From a virus: a stretch of DNA of 21,682 nucleotides. The notes under the pieces were generated by a model. That model saw only the letters and a list, made by a program, of their open reading frames with translations. It searched no databases and was not told the origin of the DNA. Numbering within the stretch: position 1 is the stretch's first letter; each line of letters begins with the position of its first letter. Location: positions 1 through 21,682 of the IMG/VR virus record IMGVR_UViG_3300049911_000081; one strand, written 5' to 3'. Below are positions 165-18,851 of this stretch, one piece after another. The position numbers and the translations under genes were made by a program.

Positions 165-638
165 CTAATTGAAGTTATATGCAACTCCTGTAAGCAGAAA
201 TGCCTTCTTATTCCCGAAAGAATAGCCTACTCCCACTGATATATATTGAAGCACTGAGACTGTCCCCGCAATAGATAATTTCGCCGGTTCAACATCTCCA
301 ACATCCTGAGTGAATAAAATCAATAAGTTCGCACTAAAATTCTGATAAGGTTGATCGTTCTGTGAAATAAAGTGAGAATAACTCAATCCTGTTCCCATAG
401 AACTCAATGAAGAAACCGCCATTGGCTTATCAAAAGTAAATTGCATCGCAGTAATTGTTACAATAGGCCTGAAAAGCCAAATAGAAGTACTCTGGTCAGC
501 TTTTGCTATTTGGTCAGTGGTCTCTGCCACTTTAAACAAAGATTCATCTACGGGCTTAAAAAAGCCTTTAAACAGACTTTGTGCGAATCCAGATAGAGTA
601 ACCGTAAATAGAAATAAAAGAATAATTAGCCTTTCCAT
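165..638 (-). CDS. Secreted, possibly outer-membrane protein of unknown function
   Basis: This 157-aa protein opens with a strong Sec signal peptide (hydrophobic residues 4-17, likely cleavage near GFAQ at 17-20). The rest has alternating hydrophobic/polar segments rich in aromatic residues and short beta-strand-like runs, with Gly-Tyr-Ser-Phe and Tyr-Asn-Phe near the end, as in small outer-membrane beta-barrels. It is the last gene before the terminator and overlaps the gene upstream by 13 bp. I do not recognise the family. Placement at the operon end and export would suit a moron-type gene that changes the host surface, such as a superinfection-exclusion protein, but that is inference. A periplasmic lysis accessory is the alternative. 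Confidence 0.7.
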   Translation of the reverse strand: MERLIILLFLFTVTLSGFAQSLFKGFFKPVDESLFKVAETTDQIAKADQSTSIWLFRPIVTITAMQFTFDKPMAVSSLSSMGTGLSYSHFISQNDQPYQNFSANLLILFTQDVGDVEPAKLSIAGTVSVLQYISVGVGYSFGNKKAFLLTGVAYNFN

Positions 639-3442: not shown

Positions 3443-5800
3443 TTAATTAGTTGTTACAACATAATGATTAGTTGCCAAAGTTGCCATAGCTGCATCACTC
3501 GCTGACGTTCTCGCTCCCATGCCTGAAAATTGTAAATTAATATGTATTCCGGCTGTGTTATGAGGTAATCCCGCGGCGGCGGCAATCAAAAAAGCATCAA
3601 CCATAGCAGTTGTCCAGGAATTATTTATTCCTATTCCACTACCGGATAATACCCATGCAGGAATAGCACCGCCATTATATATGACATTAGGACATCCGTT
3701 AAATAATAAAACCTGTAATGATGCTTGCATTGATTCTATGTGTCCTGTTATATTTGGCATGGCAGAACAGGAAAGATAGACCATTGCGACATTATCGAAA
3801 TCGGTTATATCGCCAACCCATGTGCCACCATTACCTTGTACACAGAAATACACTATTGAGGAAGGCAGATTTGCAAAATTACCAGTTACAACATATCCTC
3901 CATCTGCCAAATAAAATGTTGCCAATCCAGCCGGAACATTATTTGCGTTTCCAGTAATCTGTCCTGCAATTATATGATCAAGGGATAAATAAGTCAATCC
4001 CGCCGGTAAATTGTCCAACAAACCGGAATAATTTGCTAAATGAGTATCATCAATTCCATATAAAATCAATGTATGTAATGTTGTAGGCAGACTATTTATT
4101 GAACCATAAATTCCAGTAATATAAGCAAATGTCAAATCTACGAGAGGACAGGTAATTGCATCAATATCACCAATCCAATTGCCACGAGTTAATTTTAATA
4201 ATGTTAAAGCAGTAAGATTATTAAAATCAATTAAATTACCGGAAAGTGTAGTATTTGAGACTCCAAACCCGGTTATGAAAGTTATATCTCTATAAACTTT
4301 TATATGATAAGTCCCAGTTGAAACATAATTACTTGTATATATATTTGATCCCGTTGCCTCGACAACTGCCGTCCCGTCTCCCCAATCAATAAATGCTTTA
4401 TAACTTGTTGCTACGGTTAAAGATAATGCGACTTGTGAAATTGCTCCTGATTGAGTGCTGATGACTTCCAAGTAATCTTTTGGTAAAGGATTATCATTTG
4501 TATATGTCAAAATTTTAGTTAAATCACTTCCTGCTTTTGCAGTACTATAAGAAAATAATTCCTGCAAATAATTCCTGCTATCAACTGAATCGACAGATGT
4601 TTTCACAAAATTAATATCACGTTTTGCAGCGATCATCCATGAATCAATAAGTTCCTGATCCAATTCTAATGGATGCCATCTTTTAGGATTTGCAGCATCA
4701 TAATATCCTGCCCTTGCCGTTGCCTGATAAATACCTGCATCCGATCTGTCCCATCCCGCCCCCGCCATAATAACTAATGAATCGGCGAGATTATGATTCG
4801 TCAGACTGCCAACCTGGGATTTAATTTTTGGAAATGTATATCCTCCATAAACAATCGTATCTCCCATTAACTGAGTACCTGCGTAAGATAAACCAACATA
4901 AACACTTCCTTGTCCTGCAATATAATAATAAGTATATCCTTTATCCAATAAATATCTTGATCCTTGTATTCCATAAACTTTTTTAGTCGAAGCCATTGCT
5001 ACAGTAGCCATGTGATTACCATTGCCACTGACATCATAGAATATTGCACCTAAAGCACTAAATTCAACATTTAATGGCCAATGTGCTTCTGCTCCGGTTA
5101 CAAAACCTCTTGCCATAAGAGTTGCACCTTCGGCTGGAGTCAATAACCTACGATAGACATAAGTATCAGAATGAGATGACTTGCCAATGTAAGCACCCAC
5201 AGCCTGACAACCTACTGTAAATTTTACTGCACCTGATGGAGTAAAATTACCTGTAAAAGATTGATCTGTCCCTTGCTGTACTTCATTAACAAAAAATCTA
5301 ACTTTGGATGTTGCTAAATTTATATCTAACCTTAAAAATGCCCATCCTAAAGTTGTAAAATCAACTGTTGTAGATACATTAACATAAGTGCCTGACGAAT
5401 AAACTCTATATCTTAAATAACCTGTTGTAATATCCTGAAACACACAATAAGTTCCAAACCCATCACCGCCTATACTTTTTCCAAAAATCCATTTATAAGC
5501 AGTCTTTCCATTATCTTCACTATTGGCCCATCCGCATAAAGTTAAATCAGTTACTCCAATATCTAATTTACTCGCATCGTTCACATACGCATATTCATTT
5601 CCTGTTGGTTTATAATAATAAGGAAGCAAAAGACTTGCATCGCCCGCACCGGGAGTTACCGAATCAGGTAATGTTAATCCATTTCTTGTTCCTTCTTTAA
5701 CCCAGAAATTTGGAGTTTCTCCTCCTAATTTTTGGCCTGGTGAAGTCCAGACGCCACTGCCTCTTTTACCAATTCCGATATAATTTCCTATTCCTATCAT
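3443..5800 (-). CDS. LamG plus LRR-like adhesin, probable tail fibre
   Basis: A 785-aa protein without a signal peptide, beginning with an unusual Gly/Ile-rich stretch (MIGIGNYIGIGKRGSG). Residues of about 60-235 form a LamG/concanavalin-like jelly roll (Leu-Thr-Leu-Cys-Gly-Trp, then Phe-Phe-Val-Asn-Glu and a Tyr-Arg-Arg-Leu-Leu-Thr-Pro-Ala-Glu end, typical of carbohydrate-binding LamG_3 domains). A DWGDG motif near 470 marks a PKD-like Ig domain. From about 500 to 710 there are irregular leucine-rich repeats (Leu-Thr-x-Leu-x-Leu, Leu-Pro-x-x-Leu-x-x-Leu). The likely role is host surface recognition at the tail tip. It is the last gene of the adhesin module. Unlike the four genes before it, it has no export signal, which fits an ordinary virion protein. 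Confidence 0.7.
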   Translation of the reverse strand: MIGIGNYIGIGKRGSGVWTSPGQKLGGETPNFWVKEGTRNGLTLPDSVTPGAGDASLLLPYYYKPTGNEYAYVNDASKLDIGVTDLTLCGWANSEDNGKTAYKWIFGKSIGGDGFGTYCVFQDITTGYLRYRVYSSGTYVNVSTTVDFTTLGWAFLRLDINLATSKVRFFVNEVQQGTDQSFTGNFTPSGAVKFTVGCQAVGAYIGKSSHSDTYVYRRLLTPAEGATLMARGFVTGAEAHWPLNVEFSALGAIFYDVSGNGNHMATVAMASTKKVYGIQGSRYLLDKGYTYYYIAGQGSVYVGLSYAGTQLMGDTIVYGGYTFPKIKSQVGSLTNHNLADSLVIMAGAGWDRSDAGIYQATARAGYYDAANPKRWHPLELDQELIDSWMIAAKRDINFVKTSVDSVDSRNYLQELFSYSTAKAGSDLTKILTYTNDNPLPKDYLEVISTQSGAISQVALSLTVATSYKAFIDWGDGTAVVEATGSNIYTSNYVSTGTYHIKVYRDITFITGFGVSNTTLSGNLIDFNNLTALTLLKLTRGNWIGDIDAITCPLVDLTFAYITGIYGSINSLPTTLHTLILYGIDDTHLANYSGLLDNLPAGLTYLSLDHIIAGQITGNANNVPAGLATFYLADGGYVVTGNFANLPSSIVYFCVQGNGGTWVGDITDFDNVAMVYLSCSAMPNITGHIESMQASLQVLLFNGCPNVIYNGGAIPAWVLSGSGIGINNSWTTAMVDAFLIAAAAGLPHNTAGIHINLQFSGMGARTSASDAAMATLATNHYVVTTN

Positions 5801-5828: not shown

Positions 5829-8411
5829 CTATAATCCTCCTCCATCTGCTATTGTCCATCCATGACCTCCACTTCCAACTGCTAATACTAAATGCGCCCT
5901 TGCTGCCGCTGCTGCTCCCCCTGTTGTATATTGTGCATCGCCAGCATTAAATGTGACAGTATTTTGAACTGCCTGTGCTCCCCATGCAATCAACAAAGCA
6001 TCATAATTAGCTGTTGACAAAGCATTTGCAGCAAAAAACATAGTAGCCATATTTGTATTTAAATGCACATCAAATCCTGCAACAGATTGATTAAATACAG
6101 AACAACTCTGAAACATGGCATCTGTACGAGTTACTTTAGCCGTATTAAAATTTGCAACTGACTGATTGAACGCAGCACATCCATAAAACATATAATGCAT
6201 TACTGTTACATTCGCCGTATTAAAACCTGCAACGGATTGATTAAATGCTGTGCACGCATTGAACATTCCTGCCATATCAGTAACATTAGCGGTGTTGAAA
6301 CTTGATACTGATTGATTGAATGCCGTACAACCTGAAAACATACCATTCATATCCATTACATTAGCTGTACTAAAACCAACTGGAGAATTGAATGCAGCAC
6401 ACCCATTGAACATATTATTCATATCGTATATACTCGTTGTGTTGGGAATATCAGTATAATTACCAGTAAGGTTTGTACAACCATAAAAAGCACTATTCAT
6501 TGAACTCCAAACCGTATTTCCCCAATTTTCAATAGTTAAAAGTTTTAGCTTATCTCCACCGTTATTAAAATATATTCTTGGGAAAGTACCCCTTACCTTA
6601 ACTGTCTTTACTCCAGTTGACGGATATACATGAGTTATATTACCAGGAGTTCCTGTTGCATGTTCTTCTGCACTGCCATCACCCCAATCAATCCAACAAT
6701 CATATCCCGCTCCCGTAGTTGGTATTACTATTGTCTTTGTAGCTGATCCTCCATTCTCAGTTTGCCATGTCGTTATAAAACTATTTGATGTTCCTCCCTT
6801 AATTTCTTTGGACATTTCAATCCAAAGCCCAAGTGAAGCATTCCACTTAAAAACAATTATATCACAGTATTCCATTGTAAATGAATTACCTCCGGTAAGT
6901 GACAATCCATTCCCATTATCAAATTTAAGTGTGCCAGTTGAAGAATTATTGATTATCGTTAATTCCATCCCATCAAAAAGCCCATTAGCAATCTGCGGAT
7001 TAGCAGTAATATCCACATCGCCACTGGGGGTAACATATAAATATGGAGTTAATTTATCAGATGTTATTCCAGCAACATCCGGGGCAAATCCCCAAAAAGG
7101 CGTATTTGTATGACCCCTAAATATTATAGAAGCTGTCGCATTTGGTATTGTTACTACTGCATCTGAAAAATACATTGAAGGATATTCCACAGTAACATCT
7201 ATGGCTGGAGATTCCAAAAGTATATCAGTAGTAACTATGCCGGTCTTAGAATATAGATTCTTTCCTATCTTTGAATTTCTAAAGGATTCTGAATAAGCAC
7301 CAACCACATCTTGCCATATTAATGATGTTTCACCAACTGTAGAATTTGAAACTATGAGATTGCCTTCGATAACGACTCCTCTTGCAAACCTATATGGAGA
7401 ATCAGCGCAAATTATCTTTATTTGCGAACTGTCATTTGACTCAAAATAATTACCTGTTATATTTGCACTTTGAACACTATAATCCGAACCCGGAGCTAAA
7501 GAACCTAACTGCACGCCGGGTCCTTTATTTGTTTCAATTAAATTCCCGTTTACATTTAAACCTGAACCCACCCATTCAATTCCCGCATCACCATTAGAAG
7601 CAAAAGTACTATTGGTAATAGATATGCCATTTCCATTTGCCCCTGTATGTTTATCCGTTGTTCTACTTACAAAATTTATCCCATCTGATTTATTACAGAT
7701 AAGACTTACATGATTAAATGTATGTCCTACTGATAAATTTAAAGAATAAATGCCATGTCCCCCATTAAACCATGAATAAACACCCTCAAAATCACCATAA
7801 TTAGCATTGAATAATTCAATGCCATTACCACCCGTTCCACCTACACCAAATGCCCCACCATTCCCTTGTATCTTAATATCCTTGCAACTAAAATAAATAC
7901 AATCTCTAAATCTTAATGCTGCATGACCTGATGTATTAGAATTATAAATCACACTCTCAGGCCCCACCCCACGAATAGATATATAATTTTTAGTAACTAC
8001 AATAGAATCTGAAATCCTATATTTACCCCTCGGGAAAAATACTGTTGCACCGCCTACTGAATAAGCATTAACTCCAGCCGTCCCACCATGTACAGTTAAC
8101 TTAGCCTCAGTAATGGCTGCCTGAATTGCAGTTCTGTCATCTGTGATACTATCACCTTTTGCCCCATAATCTTTCACATTAAAAACGAGTGTTTTTGCAC
8201 TGTTTAACTGTGTCTGTATAGATGAAGTAGCATCAACAAAATTGAGTTGCGTCCCTGTTCTTGTCACTGTCACTGTTCCGATCTTTATTCCACTTACTGG
8301 TACTTCGATTCCGCCATTGGCTTTTATAACATACTTAAATGTATTTGATTGCTGACAGAAAGAAACTCCAGTAATTAAAATCCCTATCAAAAAAGTAATT
8401 AGTCTTTTCAT
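5829..8411 (-). CDS. Pectate-lyase-like beta-helix plus BspA-repeat adhesin with signal peptide
   Basis: An 860-aa modular protein. Residues 1-20 are a Sec signal peptide ending in SFCQ. Residues of about 75-410 form a right-handed beta-helix of the Pectate_lyase_3 type (NVKDYGAKGDSITDDRTAIQ at 78-97, then VFFPRGKYRISDSI), the fold of many phage tailspikes. A PKD-like domain with WIDWGDG lies near 570. Residues of about 638-800 are BspA/DUF285 repeats of 24-25 aa. The C-terminus is Ala/Gly-rich (about 825-860). The beta-helix could bind or cleave host glycans, but I cannot identify catalytic residues by eye. The BspA part is a classical Bacteroidota surface-adhesion module. The signal peptide is unexpected for a tail fibre. 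Confidence 0.7.
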   Translation of the reverse strand: MKRLITFLIGILITGVSFCQQSNTFKYVIKANGGIEVPVSGIKIGTVTVTRTGTQLNFVDATSSIQTQLNSAKTLVFNVKDYGAKGDSITDDRTAIQAAITEAKLTVHGGTAGVNAYSVGGATVFFPRGKYRISDSIVVTKNYISIRGVGPESVIYNSNTSGHAALRFRDCIYFSCKDIKIQGNGGAFGVGGTGGNGIELFNANYGDFEGVYSWFNGGHGIYSLNLSVGHTFNHVSLICNKSDGINFVSRTTDKHTGANGNGISITNSTFASNGDAGIEWVGSGLNVNGNLIETNKGPGVQLGSLAPGSDYSVQSANITGNYFESNDSSQIKIICADSPYRFARGVVIEGNLIVSNSTVGETSLIWQDVVGAYSESFRNSKIGKNLYSKTGIVTTDILLESPAIDVTVEYPSMYFSDAVVTIPNATASIIFRGHTNTPFWGFAPDVAGITSDKLTPYLYVTPSGDVDITANPQIANGLFDGMELTIINNSSTGTLKFDNGNGLSLTGGNSFTMEYCDIIVFKWNASLGLWIEMSKEIKGGTSNSFITTWQTENGGSATKTIVIPTTGAGYDCWIDWGDGSAEEHATGTPGNITHVYPSTGVKTVKVRGTFPRIYFNNGGDKLKLLTIENWGNTVWSSMNSAFYGCTNLTGNYTDIPNTTSIYDMNNMFNGCAAFNSPVGFSTANVMDMNGMFSGCTAFNQSVSSFNTANVTDMAGMFNACTAFNQSVAGFNTANVTVMHYMFYGCAAFNQSVANFNTAKVTRTDAMFQSCSVFNQSVAGFDVHLNTNMATMFFAANALSTANYDALLIAWGAQAVQNTVTFNAGDAQYTTGGAAAAARAHLVLAVGSGGHGWTIADGGGL
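6019..6500 (-). repeat. BspA/DUF285 repeat array
   Basis: About six imperfect tandem units of 24-25 codons (72-75 bp) inside the 860-aa adhesin gene. The consensus is MFxxCxxFNQSVxxFNTANV followed by Thr-x-Met. The central four units are best conserved and the flanking ones degenerate. Nucleotide similarity between units makes the array prone to copy-number change and to assembly collapse. Confidence 0.8.
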
Positions 8412-8417
8412 AATTAT

Positions 8418-8915
8418 TTAATTTGCAGTAATAACTATTTTCCAAGTTCCCACGTAAATCTTCAAAACATTCAAAGTACTATCATAAACCAGAAGTCCTA
8501 CAACGGGAGTTAAAGCATTTATTTGAGTGGTTGTCAGAACGGGTAATTTAATCCCTGACATCGAAAGGATGGCATCAGCCAATTCAATAGATTCAGGTTT
8601 ATTTGTCAAATCCGTATAACTACCACTAAAAAGAGTTGGCTTTCCAGTTATCTCAGCATAAGTAGGTACATAACCTATCGCCTTATAGAGACTATTATGG
8701 TCATGTGTAGCAGGAGTAAATACAGAAGGTTTATTGATCATAGTATTCCAGTCAGCAACACCTCCAGCGGGAAGTGATGTGTAGATAGTTCCTGCTGGAC
8801 TAAACCGAAATCCTTTGTTGAAAGTGACTATTGCATTGAAGTCTTTATCGGGTTGACAAAAAGCAACGGCAAAAGTAACCAACAAAAGAATAAGGATAAG
8901 TTTCATTTTTTTCAT
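8418..8915 (-). CDS. Short fibre protein with tail-repeat motifs and signal peptide
   Basis: A 165-aa protein. Residues 1-20 form a Sec signal peptide (Lys-Lys-Met-Lys then a hydrophobic run to Phe-Cys-Gln). The middle carries short tail-fibre repeats of the form Asp-Trp-x-x-x-x-Asn-Lys-Pro, Tyr-Ala-Glu-Ile-Thr-Gly-Lys-Pro and Tyr-x-Asp-Leu-Thr-Asn-Lys-Pro, with a Thr-His-Asp-His turn. These are typical of trimeric phage fibre shafts. The C-terminus (LLVYDSTLNVLKIYVGTW) resembles a beta-rich cap. It lies between two much larger adhesins with gaps of 6 and 2 bp. It may be an adaptor or a minor fibre. The Asn-Lys-Pro repeat recognition is good; the precise role is inferred. Confidence 0.65.
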   Translation of the reverse strand: MKKMKLILILLLVTFAVAFCQPDKDFNAIVTFNKGFRFSPAGTIYTSLPAGGVADWNTMINKPSVFTPATHDHNSLYKAIGYVPTYAEITGKPTLFSGSYTDLTNKPESIELADAILSMSGIKLPVLTTTQINALTPVVGLLVYDSTLNVLKIYVGTWKIVITAN

Positions 8916-8917
8916 AT

Positions 8918-11900
8918 TTAATGTTTTATAAGTTTCCCACCAATTTTTACTAATTTCATGTTGTGTTTTAACAGATTCCCGGTAGCCTCACTACCTCCAC
9001 CTTCTGCTACAAAACTTCGTTCATCACCGTAAGCAGTGCCAACACTATTTATGGCATAAGCCCTGATATAATAAGTTAAAGTTGCCGTCAATCCGGTTAT
9101 TGTACTCACAAATGTTCCTGTTCCTGTTCCGTCAGAAGAATAATTATCAGATTTAGATATTGCCGGTTCTGGAGTTGTACTCCAGCAAACACCCCTTGCT
9201 ATAATCCCACTACCTGATGCTATATAACCCCCGCTTTTCGCAGTGGAACTTGTTACATCATAAACAGAATTTGTTGAGACAACAGGTAATGCAGGCGTAG
9301 TGCCACCAAATTCAAATGCTCCAAGATCGGGTGCAGAACCCTGATAGGATAGCCCGACATTTATTCCTGCATTTATCAAATCAGAACCGGAAACAAGTTT
9401 TAAGAAGTTTACATCAGGTAAAGAACCTGCCTGCCTTGCTCCATCTATGCCAGTCGGGCTGATACTTGCAAAATCTGCATCAGTTACCGTGACACCTCCA
9501 TCCCAGCTATTATACTGGCTGTCATGAGAAGCATGGATAACTGGAGCAGTGCCATTGCCATAGTCAACATTATTTCTAAATACTGTCGGAAAATCATAAG
9601 TCGGGAAATAGAAGCCATTACCGCTTATTGTGACACCATTATAATAAGCAATATTATTATACATAACTACATGGAAAGAATAATAACCAGCCCTGAGACA
9701 AGAGAAACCTGTTGTTAGATTTCTATAAGCGACACAATTTGTGACAGTTCTTAAAACAGTACCCACATCAGGAGAAGATGATTTAGGCCCAAGTTTAAAC
9801 GCTTCTCCATTTCCTCTTGGAGTAAAAGTACCTGGTTCATAGCCATTATAGAACGCCCAGCAATTCTCAAGTGTATAATTGCCACATGCCAATCGTAAAT
9901 CCCAGCCGTCATCACAATTCCACCATGCTCTACAACCCCTGAAAGTTATATCTGTTGATGTTGCGCTCCCTGTTTCAAAACCATCTGACCCATCCCAGGG
10001 AGAAGCAGAATAAGGATCAGCATTATGATGACTATCACAATTAAGAAACAGGTCATCATCACAACCATCTCCTATGACAACGCCCCACCCCCCAATATGA
10101 TCTATCTCACATAACTCAAAAGTGCTGTTATCTACATTATTAATAAATATTCCGTATAACCCGTTTCCTCCATTACCATTGGTGGGCTGAATGAGATTTG
10201 TAAATCTTAATCCTTTTATATGGATATAATCAGCATTTTGCACTCTCAGGCAACATGTCATGCCCGAAACACTATGATATGAATAATCAAATACAGGTGT
10301 TTCGTTAGGATAGTTTAGTATGCTTATCAGATTGCCTGCCGTTCCGCTTATCCCTGAAAGAGTTTGAGGTGTTGCGATATAGGTTCCACCCCTTACATAA
10401 ATAATATCTCCCGGCACTGTTGCTGCATACGCATGCGATAATGTAAACCACGGACTACCTATTGTACCACTACCACTAATATCACTTCCTGTTGGTGATA
10501 TATAATAGACATGCGCTCCATAAGAAGTTACATTTATATAATTAATTTTTGTCTCTACATCTGAACCAGCACTATTAGTTGCTGTTAAAGAGACAGTATA
10601 ACTTCCGGCATTATTATATAGATGCGTGGGATTCTGTAATGTAGAAACAGGAGTTTCCCCAAATGTCCAGTACCAGCTTGTTGGAGATCCTGTAGATTGA
10701 TCCGTGAAGGTAACTGTTGTCCCTGCTGTGATATTAGTAGCCGAAGCAGTAAAGGCAGCATTCGGAAGAGCTGAAGCAGAATAAAGCCTTGCACCAATTT
10801 GCCACGATCCATTCTGATTGATCACTGAAGGGGCAGAACCTACAACCCAGGTAGCACTTGTAGATAATCCACTTTGATAAGTTGAACCAAGATTAGTACC
10901 GTAGTTTAATCGTGAAGTAGGAACAAGAGCGGTGGTATTTATGAAATTAGGATTTACAATCACCGAATGAGTATCATATCCCAAAGCCAGCCATGCCACC
11001 CATGTTATGGATGATCCATTCACATAAAAGACAGGATTGGAACCTGCACAATAATAGATATTATAATCGCACTCGAATCCATTTCCACATCCTGAGGCAA
11101 GATATATTACTGGAGTACCAGAAGGTGTAAAGAAGATATTATTCTTTATTTTAGTATTTATTGATGGAGTTGTAGTATTGGCATCAATATAAATCAAAGT
11201 CGATGAGTTTACCGAATAAAAAGTGTTATTGTAAATTTTAACCCCATTAAATCCTTTTATTCTAATATTTGTCGCACCTCCATGAAAAATATTATAAGCC
11301 ACAACTCCACTAATATCAGTCATATTGTATGCATCGTCAGATTTGAATACAATACTATAATGAGTATTATCAAAATAATTGTATTTAACTATTTGATTAA
11401 TGTTATACCCTAACATAATACCATGCGTAGATACAGGAACGGGATTGCCTGTCCATACAAACTTATTTCCTGTTATTATTGCTCCATCAAGATTATTATT
11501 TGTTGACAGACCACCGTTTTCATCTCCTGCCTGTAACATATACCCTGATGTATTCTGTGAGGTTACAGAGTTATTGATGAACGAAAAATTAGTTGGATTA
11601 TCTCTTAATATATCAACGCCATCCCATGAAGCATTAGTATTTGTATATGTCTGACCTTGTAATGTATATGATGTTTCTGTTAAATATTCGTAAGCTCCAA
11701 TATCAGGATTTGCATCTCTGGCATTCTCTCCGAAGTCATAGTTTATACTTATATCTACGCCTGCATCGATAGCATCAGAACTGGATGACAGTGTATAATA
11801 ATTAGTATTTGTATAACTTCCTGATCTTGATATATGGTTAGTGGATATTACATCTCCTGCTCCAATACAATCACTATCATAGGATTTATTATAAAGATTA

Positions 11901-12964
11901 TTGCTAAACGTAATTCCAACTAATTTAGATGCCTCTACAGGCCAAATACAATATGAACCATCTTCTTGAACTATTATGTTATTTCTGTAACTTGAATTAA
12001 CATTATTCGATGTTTCGCCTACTCCAGCTACAATTATATTACAACCATATATGCTATTTATAAATGTATTATTTGCAACCAATATATTATCTAAACTGCC
12101 ACCTGTATAAAAATTTCTACTACATCCATAAGCAATATTATTTATGAAGGTGTTTCTTGCATTACTTGGGATGCCTGTCTCATTCCAGTGACCAATACCA
12201 ACAGGGTGTTCATCGCCCATAGTTTTTGTCTGATAGACAAAATTTCTCTGAACTAAACAATCAGTTGCATCACTCACATAAATCATAACCGTATATGCGT
12301 TATAACTTATATTATCTTCAATAGTCGTGTGAGTTGCCTCAAAGGTAGAAATGCCTTCTCCCCAGTTATCATGCGCAATACAATGCCGAATAATGCAATA
12401 ATCAGGATAACGTCTTGCGCTTATCCCTGACCCCCATGAATCTGACCTCCCTTCATCGTGATTATTGTTTTGACAACAATCATAAACATTACAATATTCA
12501 ATTATAGTATAATCACCACTGACGCCTATACCTGATGCCCAACAATTATGAACTTCACAATGACTTATTAAATTATAAACTCCATCGCTTACTATTCCCG
12601 ACGCACCACCATTATTAAGTTCAAATCCAATAAAATTAATGTAGTCATCTGATAATGTAACCAATGTATTAGTACCTAATCCATTACCATCAATAATGGG
12701 ATATTCTCCAGAATAAGCAGATAGAATAGTAGGATAACCTGATGTGCCATCATGTCCCGAAACTGTAACTCTTTCATTATAGGTTCCTGTTCTTACAAAA
12801 AGAATATCTCCTGAAGCTAATCGTGATATTCCATAAGTAATCGTTAAGAATGGACTTCCTATAGTGCCGGGATTACCATTATTCCCCGTTTTTGCTACAT
12901 AGTAAATTGTGGCATTTAGAGAAATGCTTATTAAACAGAATAATATAATAAGAAGTTTTTTCAT
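8918..12964 (-). CDS. 1348-aa double beta-helix / PKD / FN3-like adhesin with signal peptide
   Basis: The largest gene here. Residues 1-18 are a Sec signal peptide. Residues of about 19-424 form a right-handed parallel beta-helix starting with Tyr-Tyr-Val-Ala-Lys-Thr-Gly and closing with PDIGAYEY. About 425-720 is further Asn-rich beta-helix. About 738-816 is a PKD domain (VTFTDQSTGSPTSWYWTFGE ... HLYNNAGSYTVSLTATNSAG). About 820-1216 is a second beta-helix module with the same opening (Tyr-Tyr-Ile-Ser-Pro-Thr-Gly-Ser) and closing (PDLGAFEF) as the first. About 1227-1320 is a fibronectin-III-like domain, followed by a short Lys-rich tail. This is a typical surface polysaccharide-binding or depolymerase architecture. 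The context makes it a tail adhesin, while the signal peptide would equally suit a cell-surface protein. Its ATG overlaps the upstream stop by 1 bp. Confidence 0.75.
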   Translation of the reverse strand: MKKLLIILFCLISISLNATIYYVAKTGNNGNPGTIGSPFLTITYGISRLASGDILFVRTGTYNERVTVSGHDGTSGYPTILSAYSGEYPIIDGNGLGTNTLVTLSDDYINFIGFELNNGGASGIVSDGVYNLISHCEVHNCWASGIGVSGDYTIIEYCNVYDCCQNNNHDEGRSDSWGSGISARRYPDYCIIRHCIAHDNWGEGISTFEATHTTIEDNISYNAYTVMIYVSDATDCLVQRNFVYQTKTMGDEHPVGIGHWNETGIPSNARNTFINNIAYGCSRNFYTGGSLDNILVANNTFINSIYGCNIIVAGVGETSNNVNSSYRNNIIVQEDGSYCIWPVEASKLVGITFSNNLYNKSYDSDCIGAGDVISTNHISRSGSYTNTNYYTLSSSSDAIDAGVDISINYDFGENARDANPDIGAYEYLTETSYTLQGQTYTNTNASWDGVDILRDNPTNFSFINNSVTSQNTSGYMLQAGDENGGLSTNNNLDGAIITGNKFVWTGNPVPVSTHGIMLGYNINQIVKYNYFDNTHYSIVFKSDDAYNMTDISGVVAYNIFHGGATNIRIKGFNGVKIYNNTFYSVNSSTLIYIDANTTTPSINTKIKNNIFFTPSGTPVIYLASGCGNGFECDYNIYYCAGSNPVFYVNGSSITWVAWLALGYDTHSVIVNPNFINTTALVPTSRLNYGTNLGSTYQSGLSTSATWVVGSAPSVINQNGSWQIGARLYSASALPNAAFTASATNITAGTTVTFTDQSTGSPTSWYWTFGETPVSTLQNPTHLYNNAGSYTVSLTATNSAGSDVETKINYINVTSYGAHVYYISPTGSDISGSGTIGSPWFTLSHAYAATVPGDIIYVRGGTYIATPQTLSGISGTAGNLISILNYPNETPVFDYSYHSVSGMTCCLRVQNADYIHIKGLRFTNLIQPTNGNGGNGLYGIFINNVDNSTFELCEIDHIGGWGVVIGDGCDDDLFLNCDSHHNADPYSASPWDGSDGFETGSATSTDITFRGCRAWWNCDDGWDLRLACGNYTLENCWAFYNGYEPGTFTPRGNGEAFKLGPKSSSPDVGTVLRTVTNCVAYRNLTTGFSCLRAGYYSFHVVMYNNIAYYNGVTISGNGFYFPTYDFPTVFRNNVDYGNGTAPVIHASHDSQYNSWDGGVTVTDADFASISPTGIDGARQAGSLPDVNFLKLVSGSDLINAGINVGLSYQGSAPDLGAFEFGGTTPALPVVSTNSVYDVTSSTAKSGGYIASGSGIIARGVCWSTTPEPAISKSDNYSSDGTGTGTFVSTITGLTATLTYYIRAYAINSVGTAYGDERSFVAEGGGSEATGNLLKHNMKLVKIGGKLIKH

Positions 12965-14286
12965 TAATTAAATGGATATGTTGATGTATATAATTCTGTT
13001 ACCTCACCGGCAGATACCGCCTTTGACCATATCCCTACCGCATCAATTCTACCAGCCAATCTTGTTCCTCCCCCGCTATATTCATTTCCCATATACCAGT
13101 TAGAAGTATTAACATATATGGTTCCTGAAAAAGTATCAGCAGAAGTTGATACATCCGCACCATTCAAGTATAGTTTAAGAGGATTTGCACCATTGCATAT
13201 CCCAACCAAATGATACCACTGTCCAGCCGATAAAGTGCCTGAAGAATGGACAGTAAAGTCAGTACCGGAAGTATTCTTAATATTAAAATATGCCTTATCA
13301 TCAGTGTCGATATATAACATCATTGTCTCCCACGGAGAAGCAGAAAGCGTAGAACGTATTAAGAATCCTGCGTTTCCTACTGTAGATTGTAATGATGTTA
13401 GATAAACCCATGCTGACAGACTTACAGTACTCCCCGAAAGAATCTGAGAAGAATTAAATGGTATCGTGGCAACATGAACAGGATCGGAGAAACTCTCTGC
13501 CTTTCCAAACTTACCAGTCTGGTTGACTATAGCAGAGGTATAACCATTTTGTGTGCCGGTCGCATCCACTATATCTGTTCCTGCTGTTTCATCGAATTGA
13601 TAAAATCCCAGAATACCTGTAAGCAAAGTTGATTCACCACTACCGCCACCCCCACCGGAACCTCCTTCTGGAATCAGATCATGCCAAACAATAGGATCAA
13701 AGGCATGAACTATTATTTGTTCTCCGGTTGCAAGAATTGGTTTAAATGTTAAAGTTCCGCTTGCTATATCAAATTTATATCCGTCAGGAGCTTTAACATT
13801 GGTTATATTCTGCCACTGCATTTGCCCTTCACGATAAACTGTTATATGTGGATGAGAAGTAAATCCTGTATTTATAATTAAAGAATCACCATTTACGGGA
13901 AATCCCGATGTGGTACCTATTATGCCCCTTAATTGATACATGCCAACCGCACCACCAGTACCCTCAAAACTCTGAAGTTGATTATAAGTGACTACCTGTT
14001 TAGGAACCTGCAAAGTATCTGTTTTAAGCCAGGCGTAAGTACCCAAGTCTTCAGCATCTGTCCGTAATTGATTCAGTGAATCATGGATTCTGTTACGTGT
14101 CTGCGATTCACGGTAGATATTCCCGAATGAATCTCTCACAGCAGAGAAGTTTGTATTTACCTTCTGGAAAGCCGTTCTTAGCGGATCACCGGTATGATCA
14201 TTCGCAGTTGTACCGACATTGACGACCGAAGTCTGTCCAAAGACCCCGAAGGGAATAAAGAGTAATAAATAGAGTATCCTTTTCAT
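12964..14286 (-). CDS. Tail fibre with N-terminal virion-type motif, LamG domain and signal peptide
   Basis: A 440-aa protein. The chosen ATG, 10 bp after the upstream stop, gives a standard Sec signal peptide (1-18, ending FGQ). An earlier in-frame ATG at 14307 would add seven residues and overlap the upstream gene. Residues 21-48 read VNVGTTANDHTGDPLRTAF...NTNF, the common N-terminal motif of phage tail fibres. A glycine linker (GGSGGGGGSG) near 208-217 joins this to a LamG jelly roll at about 222-438 (Leu-Ser-Ala-Trp-Val-Tyr, Trp-Tyr-His-Leu-Val-Gly, Leu-Tyr-Leu-Asn-Gly, then Asp-Ala-Val-Gly-Ile-Trp-Ser). The likely role is carbohydrate binding at the tail tip. The combination of a virion-type motif with an export signal is the strange part. 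Confidence 0.75.
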   Translation of the reverse strand: MKRILYLLLFIPFGVFGQTSVVNVGTTANDHTGDPLRTAFQKVNTNFSAVRDSFGNIYRESQTRNRIHDSLNQLRTDAEDLGTYAWLKTDTLQVPKQVVTYNQLQSFEGTGGAVGMYQLRGIIGTTSGFPVNGDSLIINTGFTSHPHITVYREGQMQWQNITNVKAPDGYKFDIASGTLTFKPILATGEQIIVHAFDPIVWHDLIPEGGSGGGGGSGESTLLTGILGFYQFDETAGTDIVDATGTQNGYTSAIVNQTGKFGKAESFSDPVHVATIPFNSSQILSGSTVSLSAWVYLTSLQSTVGNAGFLIRSTLSASPWETMMLYIDTDDKAYFNIKNTSGTDFTVHSSGTLSAGQWYHLVGICNGANPLKLYLNGADVSTSADTFSGTIYVNTSNWYMGNEYSGGGTRLAGRIDAVGIWSKAVSAGEVTELYTSTYPFN

Positions 14287-14296
14287 ATTAAATAAT

Positions 14297-17200
14297 TTAA
14301 CCTTCATCTACTGTTATTTCAGTTGAATCCACAGTTACCACAGTACTATCTGCCGTTGTTAAACCAGATGTTCCTTCTATATAAGCATTATCAATATTAT
14401 TGTCATAGGCACAATAAGCTCCCGTTGTCAATGCTGCCCACGTTGCCTGATCTTGTACTTCCGGAATCAAATCACCATTACGATATTTTGTCTCACAAAG
14501 ATTATTCGCTATCCAAACCTGATTGCCAATTTTAACGCTACTATAAATTTTCCCATCATTGCCGACCATATCAGCAAGTGTATCATCATCTTTGATTGGC
14601 CGAACTGAGAAACCAAAAAACTTTTGTCCTGTATAAGATCCATGATGAAAAAGAATATCATTATAACTTAATCCTTCCCAAACTCCATGCGTTACATCAA
14701 CCTCATCAGATGCCCATAAATTGCAACCATAAGTCAACGTCACAAATCCTATGAATATCCTTGCTCCCGATCCCCGGCCATTAAATCCTGTTGAATTTGT
14801 TGCCCCTGTGTTTGGTGAGGCCCAATGATCAAATCCTGTTTCTTTTAACTCACCTCCAGCAATAGCGTCCCCTCCAAGAAATGTATATAATGTTGCACAT
14901 TCTGCATCCGTTGGTATATGCCAACCTGCTGCACAAATATTTCTTGGATCATTAATGGCATACCAGTTATATAACGCACCATAAATAACTTCAAATGTTT
15001 CTTCCGGTTCTTCTGGTTCTGCAACTCTTGTACATATCTCACATAGATCAACATTCCATTCCCTGTTTCGCACATCAAACTCACCCCTGTTCATCACAAA
15101 AACCCTCACGTCACCATTATAGAGATTCAGGTCATCCTGGAAATTGCCAATAGGATCAATCTGAATATCCTGCGCCGTTTCCATGATAGGCATCTGAATT
15201 AATTGTTTTGGCCTTGCGTACTGATCAGCGATTTCATCTCCTATTAACTCCAGCAATGGTTTTGCTTCGGTTCCTCCCCTGCTATTCCATGTGTCAGTTG
15301 GCCCCAATACTGCCGTGTAAGTTGGTGATGTTTCCTCAACCGTTCCGTTAAGGTTGCCTGAGATATTTTCTACAGTAGTTTCAAAATCCAAGCCCAACAC
15401 CAATGATGTGAAAATTACATCCTCATTCGATGAGCTAATCAGAATATCAACTGTATCGAATCCTGTTATATAAAGATCAACAAATTCAGTTGCTGTGACC
15501 GTTAGATCGGTATTGAAATTTGCCGTGCCAGTATAGCCATTACAGGTAAGTTCCAAAAGTCCAGAATCACCAGTAAGGCGAACAATCATAACCTTATAAT
15601 CATCGGTTTGTTTTGCCACACCAAGTGCGCCGCCGAACTGTTCAATGACATTATCCATGTCAGCATCTACAACGTCACCGAGCTTGTATTCATAAACAAG
15701 ATTAACGCCATTGATGTTATTGTTTACTACGTATTCATTTTGTGTTATCTCTACAAATTCTTTAACTTTAATTGGTGCATATCTCCATTTGTTGCTGCCC
15801 CATAAAGGGAAATTCTGACCACCCCAGGGGTCAGGAAGCATAACCCGAACTGATTTGGTGCTAATGGAAACCGATGATAAATAGAACCTGACGTTTTTAA
15901 TTCCTAACCTCACATCGGCGAAAGGATAGGTATCATCCATGCAATGAATCCTTATCTGGTAAGGGCCAGCGTCAGGAAGTCCAATGACCTTCCGTTTATA
16001 TGTTGTCCAACCGGAACTACCAACCGGGGCATCAGCCGTTATAGTTATAGTGCTTGGCGTGGCAGTCCATTCAACAAAATCTTCATTTAATTCATGCAGG
16101 AAATAACCTGAACCGAAAATTGTTATATAGAAAATATTGCCCACAACGGCATCAGCACCGATATTATAAAGCAACCAGTCAAATTCCAATGTCACCCCGT
16201 CCGTTGCACTTATAATAGAGTTAATGCCGAATGATTGAAATATATAATCTCCAACGCCAGGATAATGATTTGTCCCTGTTAATAAAACTCCTTCATTTTC
16301 CCCGTTAATAACATTGGAGATAGGCTGAGGCAATGGTGTTCCGCTATTAGTCCAGAAATCAAATAAATATGAACCTCTATAAGTGTCGCCTTTGAATTGC
16401 CAGTTATCCAGCCAGCTTTGTTTATTGCCGTAATCCTGTTGAACAGTCACAGTTTTTGCCGGAGGTTCAATCATCAGCACTCCGCCCGGAACCTGAAGTC
16501 TTTTTGATGAAGGATGTGTAGCTATACGGTTAATAAACTGATCAGGATTAAGTGTTACTGCTGTCTTTGTAATCGCATCGGTGAAATATCTTCCATAAAC
16601 AGTTGTTGCGCCTAATTCAACAGGCCGGAGAATATAAAAGAATCCATTCCTTTGCCGGATGAAAGCGTTGTATTTTTTAAGAATCTCCACGAGTACATCC
16701 CAGCAGGTGAAGTCTTTGAAAACATCTACGTCTATCACTGTTTGATCGAAGGGACTGCTGTCAACCCCGTCCGTCATATCATCTTCATAAAGATTGACAA
16801 ACTCATAAAATGTTGTATGACCTATCTGACCAAGAATATCAAGAATAATTTCAGATTCACGTATGCGACCATCATGATAGGTAACTATCTCTTTGCCGTC
16901 ATCGTAGACTATGCTTTCTGCGTAAAGGATATTTTTCAAAATATCAAGACCGTCCGTTGCAACTACCTCAACTCTATAAGATACTGGTTCATATTCTTCG
17001 CTATAATTCTGTGTCTCAATAAATCCAATCCAATATGGTGTAATGCCGAAACGGGATATATTAACAGGTAAATGTTTATCTTCAATGGAATAAAATTCAG
17101 TTAATGCGAAGTGCGTATCAGAATAAACCCTGAATGTTGTCTTTGTAGGTCTTATCGGATCGAACAGATCATCGGAATCATTGTCATGGTTAATCGTTAG

Positions 17201-17317
17201 CGGATCGCCGGTTGCCTGCAGGATAATAGGATCGCTGGAATATAAAGGATCATTGACGCTGATTTTCCAATCAATAGCCATTATATCAGTAAACTCTATT
17301 TTCCAATGTTCAGCCAT
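14297..17317 (-). CDS. Tail-tip / baseplate protein with C-terminal FISUMP domain in reversed order
   Basis: A 1006-aa protein directly after the tape measure gene, the position of tail-tip hub or host-specificity proteins in siphoviruses. The N-terminal ~300 residues (Ala-Thr-Gly-Asp-Pro-Leu-Thr-Ile near 35, Phe-Ile-Glu-Thr-Gln near 98, Ala-Thr-Asp-Gly-Leu-Asp-Ile-Leu-Lys near 122) have the look of a Bacteroidota phage tail-hub protein. The middle is beta-rich. The C-terminus is a FISUMP domain, a C-type-lectin-like fold, but its normally second half (YGALYNWYAIND ... GFSVRPIKD, about 779-911) comes before its normally first half (DGKIYSSVKIGNQVWIANN ... WAALTTGAYC, about 922-970). A short Thr/Val/Asp tail ends the protein. 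The start overlaps the tape measure stop by 8 bp. The FISUMP part probably binds the receptor. Confidence 0.75.
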   Translation of the reverse strand: MAEHWKIEFTDIMAIDWKISVNDPLYSSDPIILQATGDPLTINHDNDSDDLFDPIRPTKTTFRVYSDTHFALTEFYSIEDKHLPVNISRFGITPYWIGFIETQNYSEEYEPVSYRVEVVATDGLDILKNILYAESIVYDDGKEIVTYHDGRIRESEIILDILGQIGHTTFYEFVNLYEDDMTDGVDSSPFDQTVIDVDVFKDFTCWDVLVEILKKYNAFIRQRNGFFYILRPVELGATTVYGRYFTDAITKTAVTLNPDQFINRIATHPSSKRLQVPGGVLMIEPPAKTVTVQQDYGNKQSWLDNWQFKGDTYRGSYLFDFWTNSGTPLPQPISNVINGENEGVLLTGTNHYPGVGDYIFQSFGINSIISATDGVTLEFDWLLYNIGADAVVGNIFYITIFGSGYFLHELNEDFVEWTATPSTITITADAPVGSSGWTTYKRKVIGLPDAGPYQIRIHCMDDTYPFADVRLGIKNVRFYLSSVSISTKSVRVMLPDPWGGQNFPLWGSNKWRYAPIKVKEFVEITQNEYVVNNNINGVNLVYEYKLGDVVDADMDNVIEQFGGALGVAKQTDDYKVMIVRLTGDSGLLELTCNGYTGTANFNTDLTVTATEFVDLYITGFDTVDILISSSNEDVIFTSLVLGLDFETTVENISGNLNGTVEETSPTYTAVLGPTDTWNSRGGTEAKPLLELIGDEIADQYARPKQLIQMPIMETAQDIQIDPIGNFQDDLNLYNGDVRVFVMNRGEFDVRNREWNVDLCEICTRVAEPEEPEETFEVIYGALYNWYAINDPRNICAAGWHIPTDAECATLYTFLGGDAIAGGELKETGFDHWASPNTGATNSTGFNGRGSGARIFIGFVTLTYGCNLWASDEVDVTHGVWEGLSYNDILFHHGSYTGQKFFGFSVRPIKDDDTLADMVGNDGKIYSSVKIGNQVWIANNLCETKYRNGDLIPEVQDQATWAALTTGAYCAYDNNIDNAYIEGTSGLTTADSTVVTVDSTEITVDEG

Positions 17318-18851
17318 TACGTCTTAATGCAAGTATTATATCCCGTCCCTTTATCTTACCGTCAACCTTTACTGTCATCATTCCAGAAGTCATTGGAGTA
17401 ACTTTTGATCCTCGTGGTAGATTTACTACTTCCGGCCCACGTTCACCAACAACTGAAAGTCCACCAGGTGCGAAGTTTGTTCCACTGGCAAATCCTGTTA
17501 TAAATTTTGCAAGTCCTCCACCCATAGCACCTCCAACATCAAATATTGCACTCGCAGGGAATAATAATTTCATAAGTCCGAATACCACCGCCCTTGCTGC
17601 CATTTGCTCGGCCATTTGAATTAACATCTGTTTGAATGATTCCGCCAATCCTTTGAATCCTTCATCCAAGCCTGAAAATAAAGTCTCAAAAACATCAGTT
17701 AGTTTATTCGCAACACTCATTTGCCTTTCAAGTTCATCAGTAACTTCGCCTATTGGCTTTTCACCTCCGAATTTTTGTAATCCTGGTAATACTGGTTTTG
17801 TTCCGAATCCTGGCAATGTTATGTTTTCAGTTGAGATAGGTTTTAATCCTGCCGCACCTGCACTTTTCGCTATTTCAGAATGAACTATTTTCCACGCTTC
17901 AGCTTGTTTTGTGGCTTCAATGTTTGCAGCTTTGATCTGATCTACATAATCCTGAATATTCTTTAATGCTTTTCCTGTTTCTTTGGTTACCTCAGCTACA
18001 ACAGTAGCCTCACCAAGCATTGTCCCTTTCCCTGCGTATTGTAACTCTTCTGGTGTTAAATCCTTTTTCTTATCTTCCAAAAATGCTGCATATTGCTTTT
18101 GGCTCATCATCATCTTTGAAAAGAAACTTAATTGCTTATCTGCTAATTGTTGAAAGAATGTTGTTGATCCTGAAAGTACTCTTTGAACTACCTTGCTGTT
18201 AACAAGAAACTCACCCCATGCTTCTTTTAAATCTTTTACTGAGGCAGACATAGCAGCGAATCTCACTCCTGCTGTATCTGAAACAGTCCCCATTTTTGCT
18301 ATTTCTGCATTGACAAGTTCCATTACACCCGTCAATCCTTCTTTTGACAATGCTTCTTTAGCGGCATTGGCCGAAATACCCAATGCAATAAACGACTTAG
18401 GCGCACGACGGCCCACGCCCTGAACTATCTTTTCAGTTAATTCGGTTATAGAACCTCCAGTCTGTATTGCCCTGTTAGTTGCAAATTCAAGTAACTTCGC
18501 TAAGTCTCTAAGTGGAACTCCAAAGTTTTGAGCTTTGATAGCCAATGCCATTAGATCAGACTGTTCAATGGTTCCACGTGTAGCCTTAGTCAAGTCACCA
18601 AGTACCTTTTGACCTACAGTTCCTAATTTGCTATAAGCATTTTTCACACCCTCAGCCTCAGCTGCGAGCTTCATGGATTCTTTGGAAAAACTAACAATAG
18701 CCCCGATACTAAAGAGGGCTACCACTGATCTGGCGGCAATAGAGATAGTATTTTTAAATCCGTTGATGGATTTATTCATGTCTCCCATTGCCTTCTGGAA
18801 GCCGGAAGTATCACCTTTAAATTTATATCCTATTGAATAATCTCTTGGCAT
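17310..18851 (-). CDS. Tail tape measure protein
   Basis: A 513-aa protein that sets tail length and forms the channel for DNA entry. It has an Ala/Lys/Glu-rich helical N-terminal half starting with phage tape-measure features (Phe-Lys-Gly-Asp-Thr-Ser-Gly-Phe-Gln-Lys-Ala at about 11-21). There is a hydrophobic segment at about 36-56 and a second hydrophobic region at about 420-455. The common C-terminal motif GGLSVVGERGPEVV lies at 463-476. It follows the chaperone and gp10-like genes and precedes the tail-tip gene, as expected. It is short for a siphovirus tape measure, implying a tail of roughly 75 nm at 1.5 Å per residue. The ATG overlaps the upstream TAA by 1 bp. Confidence 0.85.
   Translation of the reverse strand: MPRDYSIGYKFKGDTSGFQKAMGDMNKSINGFKNTISIAARSVVALFSIGAIVSFSKESMKLAAEAEGVKNAYSKLGTVGQKVLGDLTKATRGTIEQSDLMALAIKAQNFGVPLRDLAKLLEFATNRAIQTGGSITELTEKIVQGVGRRAPKSFIALGISANAAKEALSKEGLTGVMELVNAEIAKMGTVSDTAGVRFAAMSASVKDLKEAWGEFLVNSKVVQRVLSGSTTFFQQLADKQLSFFSKMMMSQKQYAAFLEDKKKDLTPEELQYAGKGTMLGEATVVAEVTKETGKALKNIQDYVDQIKAANIEATKQAEAWKIVHSEIAKSAGAAGLKPISTENITLPGFGTKPVLPGLQKFGGEKPIGEVTDELERQMSVANKLTDVFETLFSGLDEGFKGLAESFKQMLIQMAEQMAARAVVFGLMKLLFPASAIFDVGGAMGGGLAKFITGFASGTNFAPGGLSVVGERGPEVVNLPRGSKVTPMTSGMMTVKVDGKIKGRDIILALRRNG

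Follow-up and report, generated by a model that had tools for sequence, protein, structure and literature searches.

Signal peptides on successive tail-fibre genes of a probable Bacteroidota phage suggest that some fibres are exported and attached late

The window analysed here, 21,682 nucleotides of viral DNA (IMG/VR record IMGVR_UViG_3300049911_000081, positions 1 to 21,682), carries four successive tail-fibre genes in which export signals are well supported, and their products most likely belong to the virion and are more than a cell-surface display. We consider it moderately probable that these fibres leave the cytoplasm as precursors, lose their signals, come together in the periplasm and join the tails when the cell lyses or afterwards; the cleavage, the periplasmic assembly and the late docking are steps that we infer. 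The data thus suggest that fibre assembly in some tailed phages takes place beyond the cytoplasm, with attachment as a late step. The host of the source virus is probably a member of the Bacteroidota, given the Cellulophaga-like tail tip and the Bacteroidota-type signals.

All genes lie on the minus strand, and the positions 12964, 8918, 8418 and 5829, by which an earlier note had named four genes with signal peptides, are gene ends. The note's claim is borne out by a self-written, rule-based predictor (positive n-region, hydrophobic core, -3/-1 cleavage rule), for which precisely these four among 22 genes are positive, each with n, h and c regions. Cleavage is predicted between MKRILYLLLFIPFGVFG and QTSVVN in fibre 1 (signal at 14236..14286), between MKKLLIILFCLISISLNA and TIYYVA in fibre 2 (12911..12964), between MKKMKLILILLLVTFAVAFC and QPDKDF in fibre 3 (8856..8915) and between MKRLITFLIGILITGVSFC and QQSNTF in fibre 4 (8355..8411). 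The hydrophobic runs of 13-16 residues have the length of signal peptides and not of a full membrane helix. With the same predictor, 28/860 longest-start ORFs from unrelated viral contigs are positive, and because this background is only 3.3%, four successive positives far exceed chance. The Bacteroidota-style cleavage that had been ascribed to all four holds for fibres 1, 3 and 4, which have Gln at +1 (the Q-rule), and fails for fibre 2, which has Thr; taken alone, the Q-rule is weak evidence for any one protein (5-20% by shuffling), and its weight comes only from recurrence. More than 60% of Porphyromonas gingivalis signal peptidase I substrates carry this Gln (PMC5837995). By eye, the residue ahead of Cys in fibres 3 and 4 is Phe, which gives no lipobox; relatives of fibre 3 read AVA|CGQ or ACG|Q, such that some could be lipoproteins. 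A fifth signal-bearing gene, 165-638, also follows the Q-rule (MERLIILLFLFTVTLSGFA before Q) and is kept in contigs L162 and L160; its product is outer-membrane-protein-like.

The four genes lie between the tail tip and the lysis genes and include beta-helix and lectin domains, as expected of virion fibres or tailspikes. Upstream lies the tail-tip gene (14297..17317, minus strand), which has no signal and matches MS-verified Cellulophaga tail proteins. Fibre gene 1 (12964..14286, 440 aa) encodes the signal, a gp10/gp9-like anchor and a C-terminal LamG-like lectin domain (Laminin_G_3, 7.3e-24 by Pfam; phrog_677, baseplate wedge tail fiber connector, 1.8e-7); its start is most likely 14286 rather than the 14307 of the ORF, because the resulting 10-base gap to the tail-tip stop equals that in contig L162. 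Fibre gene 2 (8918..12964, 1348 aa) combines its signal with two right-handed beta-helix regions and a PKD domain (Pel9A-like_beta_helix 1.4e-23, Beta_helix 4.1e-16, PKD_4 1.3e-13). Fibre gene 3 (8418..8915, 165 aa) has fibre repeats of the Asn-Lys-Pro type, resembles proteins annotated as tail or minor tail components, is 35% identical to L162:7379-7819 and has signal-bearing homologues in L251, L259 and L260. Fibre gene 4 (5829..8411, 860 aa) contains a pectate-lyase/tailspike domain and DUF285 repeats (DUF285 8.1e-40, Pect-lyase_RHGA_epim 4.3e-11; phrog_2234 and phrog_7458, tail spike). Both kinds of fibre motif reported earlier, the gp9/gp10-type motif and the Asn-Lys-Pro repeats, were thus recovered, as was the lack of a signal on the adhesin that bounds the block downstream (3443..5800, minus strand), whose N-terminus is negative by the predictor and which shares 31% local identity with the likewise signal-less L162:8583-9884.

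In fibre 1 the anchor motif QTSVVNVGTTANDHTGDPLRTAFQKVNTNFSAVRDSF (14125..14235, minus strand) begins directly behind the signal, at the predicted mature N-terminus. A profile built from 12 homologues with signals aligns with T4 gp10 over residues 3-36 (2.2e-7), the segment being the gp10 N-terminus in solved baseplates. Among 192 signal-free viral proteins with this motif, the spacing from Met to the motif core has a mode of 4 residues (171/192); in 20 signal-bearing proteins the distance from the predicted cleavage site to the core is 3-5 residues (4 in 15 of them). After predicted cleavage, the N-terminal length is that of the signal-free proteins, and only if this cleavage occurs would the fibre 1 anchor stand at the extreme mature N-terminus. 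Gln is at +1 in 19/20 of the signal-bearing motif proteins, and it is invariant in an alignment of 10 of them in which the hydrophobic residues vary. Scanning for Gln at the motif-start position returned only two classes of protein, those with a Met a few residues before it and those with a whole signal, and no intermediate forms.

Signal-bearing blocks recur, as a survey of homologues suggested by the earlier note makes clear. Scanning with an alignment of three closer tail-tip members (a nine-member alignment was too divergent) found homologues in 25 contigs, while single-protein scans with the tape measure and fibre 1 returned few or no relatives. Behind the tail-tip homologue stand three consecutive signal-bearing genes in L251, five in L259 and four in L260; other contigs have at least one or two, and several have none. 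Blocks of two to five successive signal-bearing fibre genes are found both in related contigs and in Cellulophaga phage isolates that belong to several families. The blocks are practically all-or-none for signals, as expected if partner proteins must meet in one compartment; the signal rates inside and outside blocks (19/19 versus 5/59) are partly circular, the blocks having been chosen by their signals, and are not used as evidence. Synonymous sites are mostly saturated among homologues, yet the signal is retained, and in pairs from different phage families the first 40 residues (signal and mature start) are 95-100% identical with bodies at 21-29%. The body of phi10:1 gp93 is also present in phi4:1 gp052, which is annotated from MS/MS and whose N-terminus has no signal (50% vs 25% identity).

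Virion membership of signal-bearing fibres is well supported in relatives. Thirteen such proteins from four Cellulophaga isolates (phi10:1 gp91-94, phi19:1 gp101-104, phi39:1 gp25-26 and phi18:3 gp85-87) are annotated from MS/MS of virions, and it is because of these that we take the fibres most likely to be virion parts, with the provisos that the annotation concerns relatives of the source virus and that material from the envelope could have co-purified with the virions. The remaining signal-bearing genes of phi10:1, phi19:1 and phi39:1 are absent from the MS/MS set. Since the Cellulophaga fibres are without the gp10-type motif, the proteins behind the exact-junction argument are not those behind the evidence from MS/MS.

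We propose that the four genes produce tail fibres or spikes as Sec precursors, and that at the inner membrane of the host signal peptidase I would cut off the signal, usually leaving Gln as the first residue. Bacteroidota turn an exposed N-terminal Gln into pyroglutamate. The mature fibres would remain in the periplasm, because no outer-membrane sorting domain was found: the fibre proteins have no Pfam match to the Type IX C-terminal sorting domain at E<=0.01, which also rules against the Type IX secretion route. There they would join into one complex, whose first member would now begin with the T4 gp10/gp9-type anchor. Once lysis proteins open the cell, this complex would dock on virions that had been put together in the cytoplasm, at the tips of their tails. 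Several points run counter to this scheme. Fibre 2 breaks the Q-rule, several related phages work with signal-free fibres, and lysis dilutes periplasmic proteins, such that late docking requires tight binding. Bacteroidota O-glycosylation was considered as a reason for export and rejected, the motif not being enriched (53 observed against 64 expected in exported fibres, 71 against 66 in cytoplasmic virion proteins).

Of the readings that the earlier note had offered, fibre joining during or after lysis fits best. Its proposal of export to the surface of the infected cell, for superinfection exclusion, polysaccharide binding or biofilm exit, can be widened to release from the cell, to lysogenic cells and to polysaccharide degradation, with the fibres serving outside the virion. 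This reading draws on signals that are genuine and on lectin, beta-helix and BspA-like domains that are frequent on bacterial surfaces; P. gingivalis phages moreover carry genes for Q-rule proteins whose function is unknown (PMC10367356), and gene 165-638 may be of such a type. As a main role it is nevertheless unlikely, given the virion-anchor motif precisely at the predicted mature N-terminus, the virion annotation of relatives, the fibre position of the genes and the missing sorting domain. A dual use, in which exported fibres act in or on the producer-cell envelope before virions take them up, is compatible with all sequence data, as a periplasmic pool would pre-exist lysis, but nothing points specifically to a pre-lysis function, and we give it a similarly small chance.

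The note's other suggestion, that the hydrophobic segment stays uncut as a helix attaching the fibre to the virion, to which anchoring in a membrane may be added, agrees with an MS/MS annotation that places such proteins in virions and is silent on cleavage. It is very improbable in view of the short hydrophobic runs, the conserved small-residue/Gln cleavage sites and an anchor that starts precisely at the cleavage point, where an uncut signal would occupy the interface. That the signals are passive relics, gained with bacterial surface-protein domains while the fibres still fold in the cytoplasm, would suit bodies that are clearly shuffled and cellular in type; we regard this too as highly unlikely, as signal and mature start stay constant while bodies are exchanged, the signal outlasts near-saturation of synonymous sites, and it stands before a phage-specific motif with no transitional forms.

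Current understanding places the assembly of tail fibres in tailed phages in the cytoplasm. Export, if true, would mean a separate assembly compartment for fibres and an infectivity dependent on host Sec, signal peptidase and glutaminyl cyclase pathways; co-infecting phages could share fibres within a lysate, and laboratory expression of such fibres would have pitfalls. We would put at slightly better than even the chance that many Bacteroidota tailed phages (and apparently a few in other phyla, for example Verrucomicrobiota) have two-compartment virions, in which a cytoplasmic capsid and tail are joined only at or after lysis by a Sec-exported, signal-cleaved receptor-binding fibre complex from the periplasm. 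The prediction is checkable in already existing virion proteomic spectra, where the expected pyroglutamate N-termini are pGlu-GVAPLVDQVR (phi19:1 gp101), pGlu-VEQVEAVVLAK (phi39:1 gp25), pGlu-TTDVVK (phi10:1 gp91), pGlu-TVEGTVGSDGSLIPYNVSGGLDETAVDTK (phi10:1 gp94) and pGlu-VLVPENTGYGYDNLTTVQLNALTK (phi18:3 gp85). We found no report of exported signal-bearing tail fibres in the open-access papers searched and no mention there of signal peptides on flavophage or Cellulophaga fibres, the term being absent from Bartlau et al. (PMC8776804).

Among known systems, coat proteins of filamentous phages (inoviruses) use a signal to cross the inner membrane and only then enter the particle; their extrusion through the envelope is non-lytic, whereas the phage here is tailed and has an endolysin gene. 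T4 gp9 attaches to a preformed baseplate. The T4 proteins gp10 and gp9, trimeric outer baseplate proteins bearing fibres (PMC3004832), share the N-terminal motif with fibre 1 but are made in the cytoplasm and signal-free, whereas fibre 1 has a signal directly before the motif. The branched tailspike complexes of CBA120 TSP4 and G7C gp66, with several fibres on one adaptor (PMC8825819), offer a model for how four successive fibres may form one complex, although no export signals are described for them, unlike the four fibres here. The P. gingivalis phage proteins (PMC10367356; also noted in PMC10653852), described as possible modifiers of the outer membrane, have Bacteroidota Q-rule signals in common with our fibres but are not described as fibres. 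The Cellulophaga phages phi10:1, phi19:1, phi39:1 and phi18:3 have, like the source virus, two to five successive signal-bearing fibre or pectate-lyase genes, with products annotated from MS/MS as virion proteins; the mature N-termini of these products differ from the gp10 type, and both their host and their particles are known.

The window, a virus record of 21,682 bases, is a siphovirus-type tail module with all main genes on the minus strand. In the direction of transcription, the tail genes come first, with the tape measure (17310-18851) preceding the tail-tip gene (14297-17317), and are followed by four fibre genes (12964-14286, 8918-12964, 8418-8915 and 5829-8411), directly after these an adhesin without a signal (3443-5800), then membrane proteins, an endolysin (2233-2655, matching phrog_465) and a caspase-like gene (1309-2115). 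The proposal of the earlier note that the four fibre proteins carry signal peptides is borne out by our rule-based predictor, which scores exactly these four of the 22 window genes as positive and has a background rate of 3.3% (28 of 860 unrelated viral ORFs). The hydrophobic runs span 13–16 residues, and in three of the four genes the cleavage site is a small residue followed by Gln; Bacteroidota signal peptidase I usually cleaves directly before Gln at +1 (the Q-rule, PMC5837995). The signals obey this rule, and the tail tip has matches among the virion proteins of two Cellulophaga phages, phi12:1 and phi18:1; the host is therefore most likely one of the Bacteroidota.

Three further features of the window deserve mention. 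A small, outer-membrane-protein-like gene near the lysis genes (165-638, minus strand), absent from the earlier note, passes a relaxed version of the predictor with a Q-rule signal that is kept in two related contigs, L160 and L162 (54% identity in the latter). Residues 780-974 of the tail tip align with a protein from a Rhodobacteraceae phage (36%), and residues 778-867 with a 735-kb phage; the tips of L162 and contig L140 are shorter, and this part thus looks like a domain inserted near the C-terminus. In the caspase-like gene, a segment of about 50 residues with the presumed catalytic His (IHNSTHGTQLAGNGGDE...) is not at its usual site ahead of DSCFSG but at the very C-terminal end (reference, the homologue L162:12605-13384), reflecting either intragenic transposition or permutation, or an assembly shuffle.

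The predicted mature N-terminus of fibre 1 is QTSVVNVGTTANDHTGDPLRTAFQKVN. Fibre 1 hits phrog_677 at 1.8e-7 (annotated 'baseplate wedge tail fiber protein connector'), and a profile built from 12 relatives that carry signals aligns with T4 gp10 of solved baseplates over residues 3-36 (2.2e-7); gp10 and gp9 are fibre-carrying trimers at the baseplate rim (PMC3004832). Across viral contigs this anchor motif nearly always directly follows the start codon, e.g. MAKQTINIGTTANDGTGDPLRTAF, and a signal peptide preceded it in two of the first 109 proteins surveyed; a directed scan and a second, signal-independent scan brought the number of distinct proteins with a signal to 20. Four residues separate Met from the [IV]x[IV]G core in 171 of 192 signal-free proteins, and four separate the predicted cleavage from the core in 15 of 20 signal-bearing ones (three or five in the rest); some of these loci came from a pattern with a fixed Gln position, and among the 14 found without it the spacing is four in nine and three or five in five. 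Because the spacings match, cleavage would restore, almost to the residue, the N-terminus of signal-free anchor proteins. In an alignment of ten signal-bearing anchor proteins, the +1 residue is invariably Gln while the hydrophobic residues vary. Signal and anchor also occur together in some GC-rich contigs that do not seem to come from Bacteroidota (L035, L087, L149 and L205, the last from a Verrucomicrobia MAG), and the arrangement may thus have had more than one origin. L035, probably not from Bacteroidota, has three successive signal-bearing genes (6545-9235), one with the anchor motif, which suggests an independent origin.

Evidence that such proteins reach particles comes from GenBank records of Cellulophaga phages that flag proteins seen by MS/MS of virions. 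All 13 proteins of the consecutive annotated runs phi10:1 gp91-94, phi19:1 gp101-104, phi39:1 gp25-26 and phi18:3 gp85-87 start with signal peptides, and the +1 residue is Gln in 12; the capsid, portal and tail-tip proteins checked in these four phages have none. The remaining signal-bearing genes of phi10:1, phi19:1 and phi39:1 are missing from the MS/MS list, which argues against general envelope-protein contamination, though those genes are small. Virion fibres of phi18:1, phi4:1 and phi14:2 lack signals. The body of phi10:1 gp93 reappears at 50% identity behind a different, signal-free N-terminus in phi4:1 gp052, itself an MS/MS-annotated virion protein, so this type of fibre occurs in particles whether or not an export signal precedes it. 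The first 40 residues of phi10:1 gp93 and gp94 (signal and mature start) share 95-100% identity with fibres from other phage families (Pachyviridae, Duneviridae), although the bodies share just 21-29%; the export signal moves together with the N-terminal connector.

Two annotations in further Cellulophaga phages are worth recording. In phi13:2 (contig L296, 2865-4525) the first fibre gene is seemingly split: gp084 retains the signal, and gp085, a 71-residue 'virion structural protein' without one, looks like its broken-off end. Several notes in the phi38:1 record (NC_021796) point to similar genes 'phi18:1_gp69' through 'gp101', numbers beyond the 65 genes of phi18:1; another phage was probably meant.

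Tail-tip homologues occur in 25 viral contigs, and the homologue survey called for by the earlier note found multi-gene signal-bearing blocks recurring in some of these relatives, not in all. Consecutive signal-bearing fibre genes follow the tail tip in L251 (three; L162 is this same contig), L259 (five) and L260 (four), one gene among these counts being scored by eye; L160 has three signal-bearing fibre genes, and at least one or two follow the tail tip in L255, L262/L264 and L263. The fibre position of L257/L258, L266, L268, L269, L271 and L275 holds no signal-bearing genes. With synonymous sites mostly saturated across related blocks, the signals remain hydrophobic and cleavable. Directly behind the block of L162 lies an ORF (7826-8566) resembling a GIY-YIG-type homing endonuclease, possibly a driver of fibre exchange.

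Q-rule signals have been reported in P. gingivalis phages, in proteins of unknown function (PMC10367356; repeated in PMC10653852). Among the open-access papers searched, we found none that links signals of this kind with virions or tail fibres, and signal peptides go unmentioned in the North Sea flavophage paper; fibres, anchors and Sec signals are each known, their combination apparently not. Most likely, the fibres would be exported by Sec and cleaved by signal peptidase I; no Type IX sorting domain was found in them, and they should thus remain in the periplasm. There they would build a branched complex within one compartment and dock, via the first member, on tails made in the cytoplasm, which would be possible only once the inner membrane is breached, that is, at or after lysis. 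Signal-bearing blocks are essentially all-or-none and the gp10-type anchor of the window occurs only in the first fibre gene, which fits a branched assembly like that of CBA120 TSP4 (PMC8825819). For the proposed late docking, T4 gp9, which binds a preformed baseplate (PMC3004832), offers a partial precedent.
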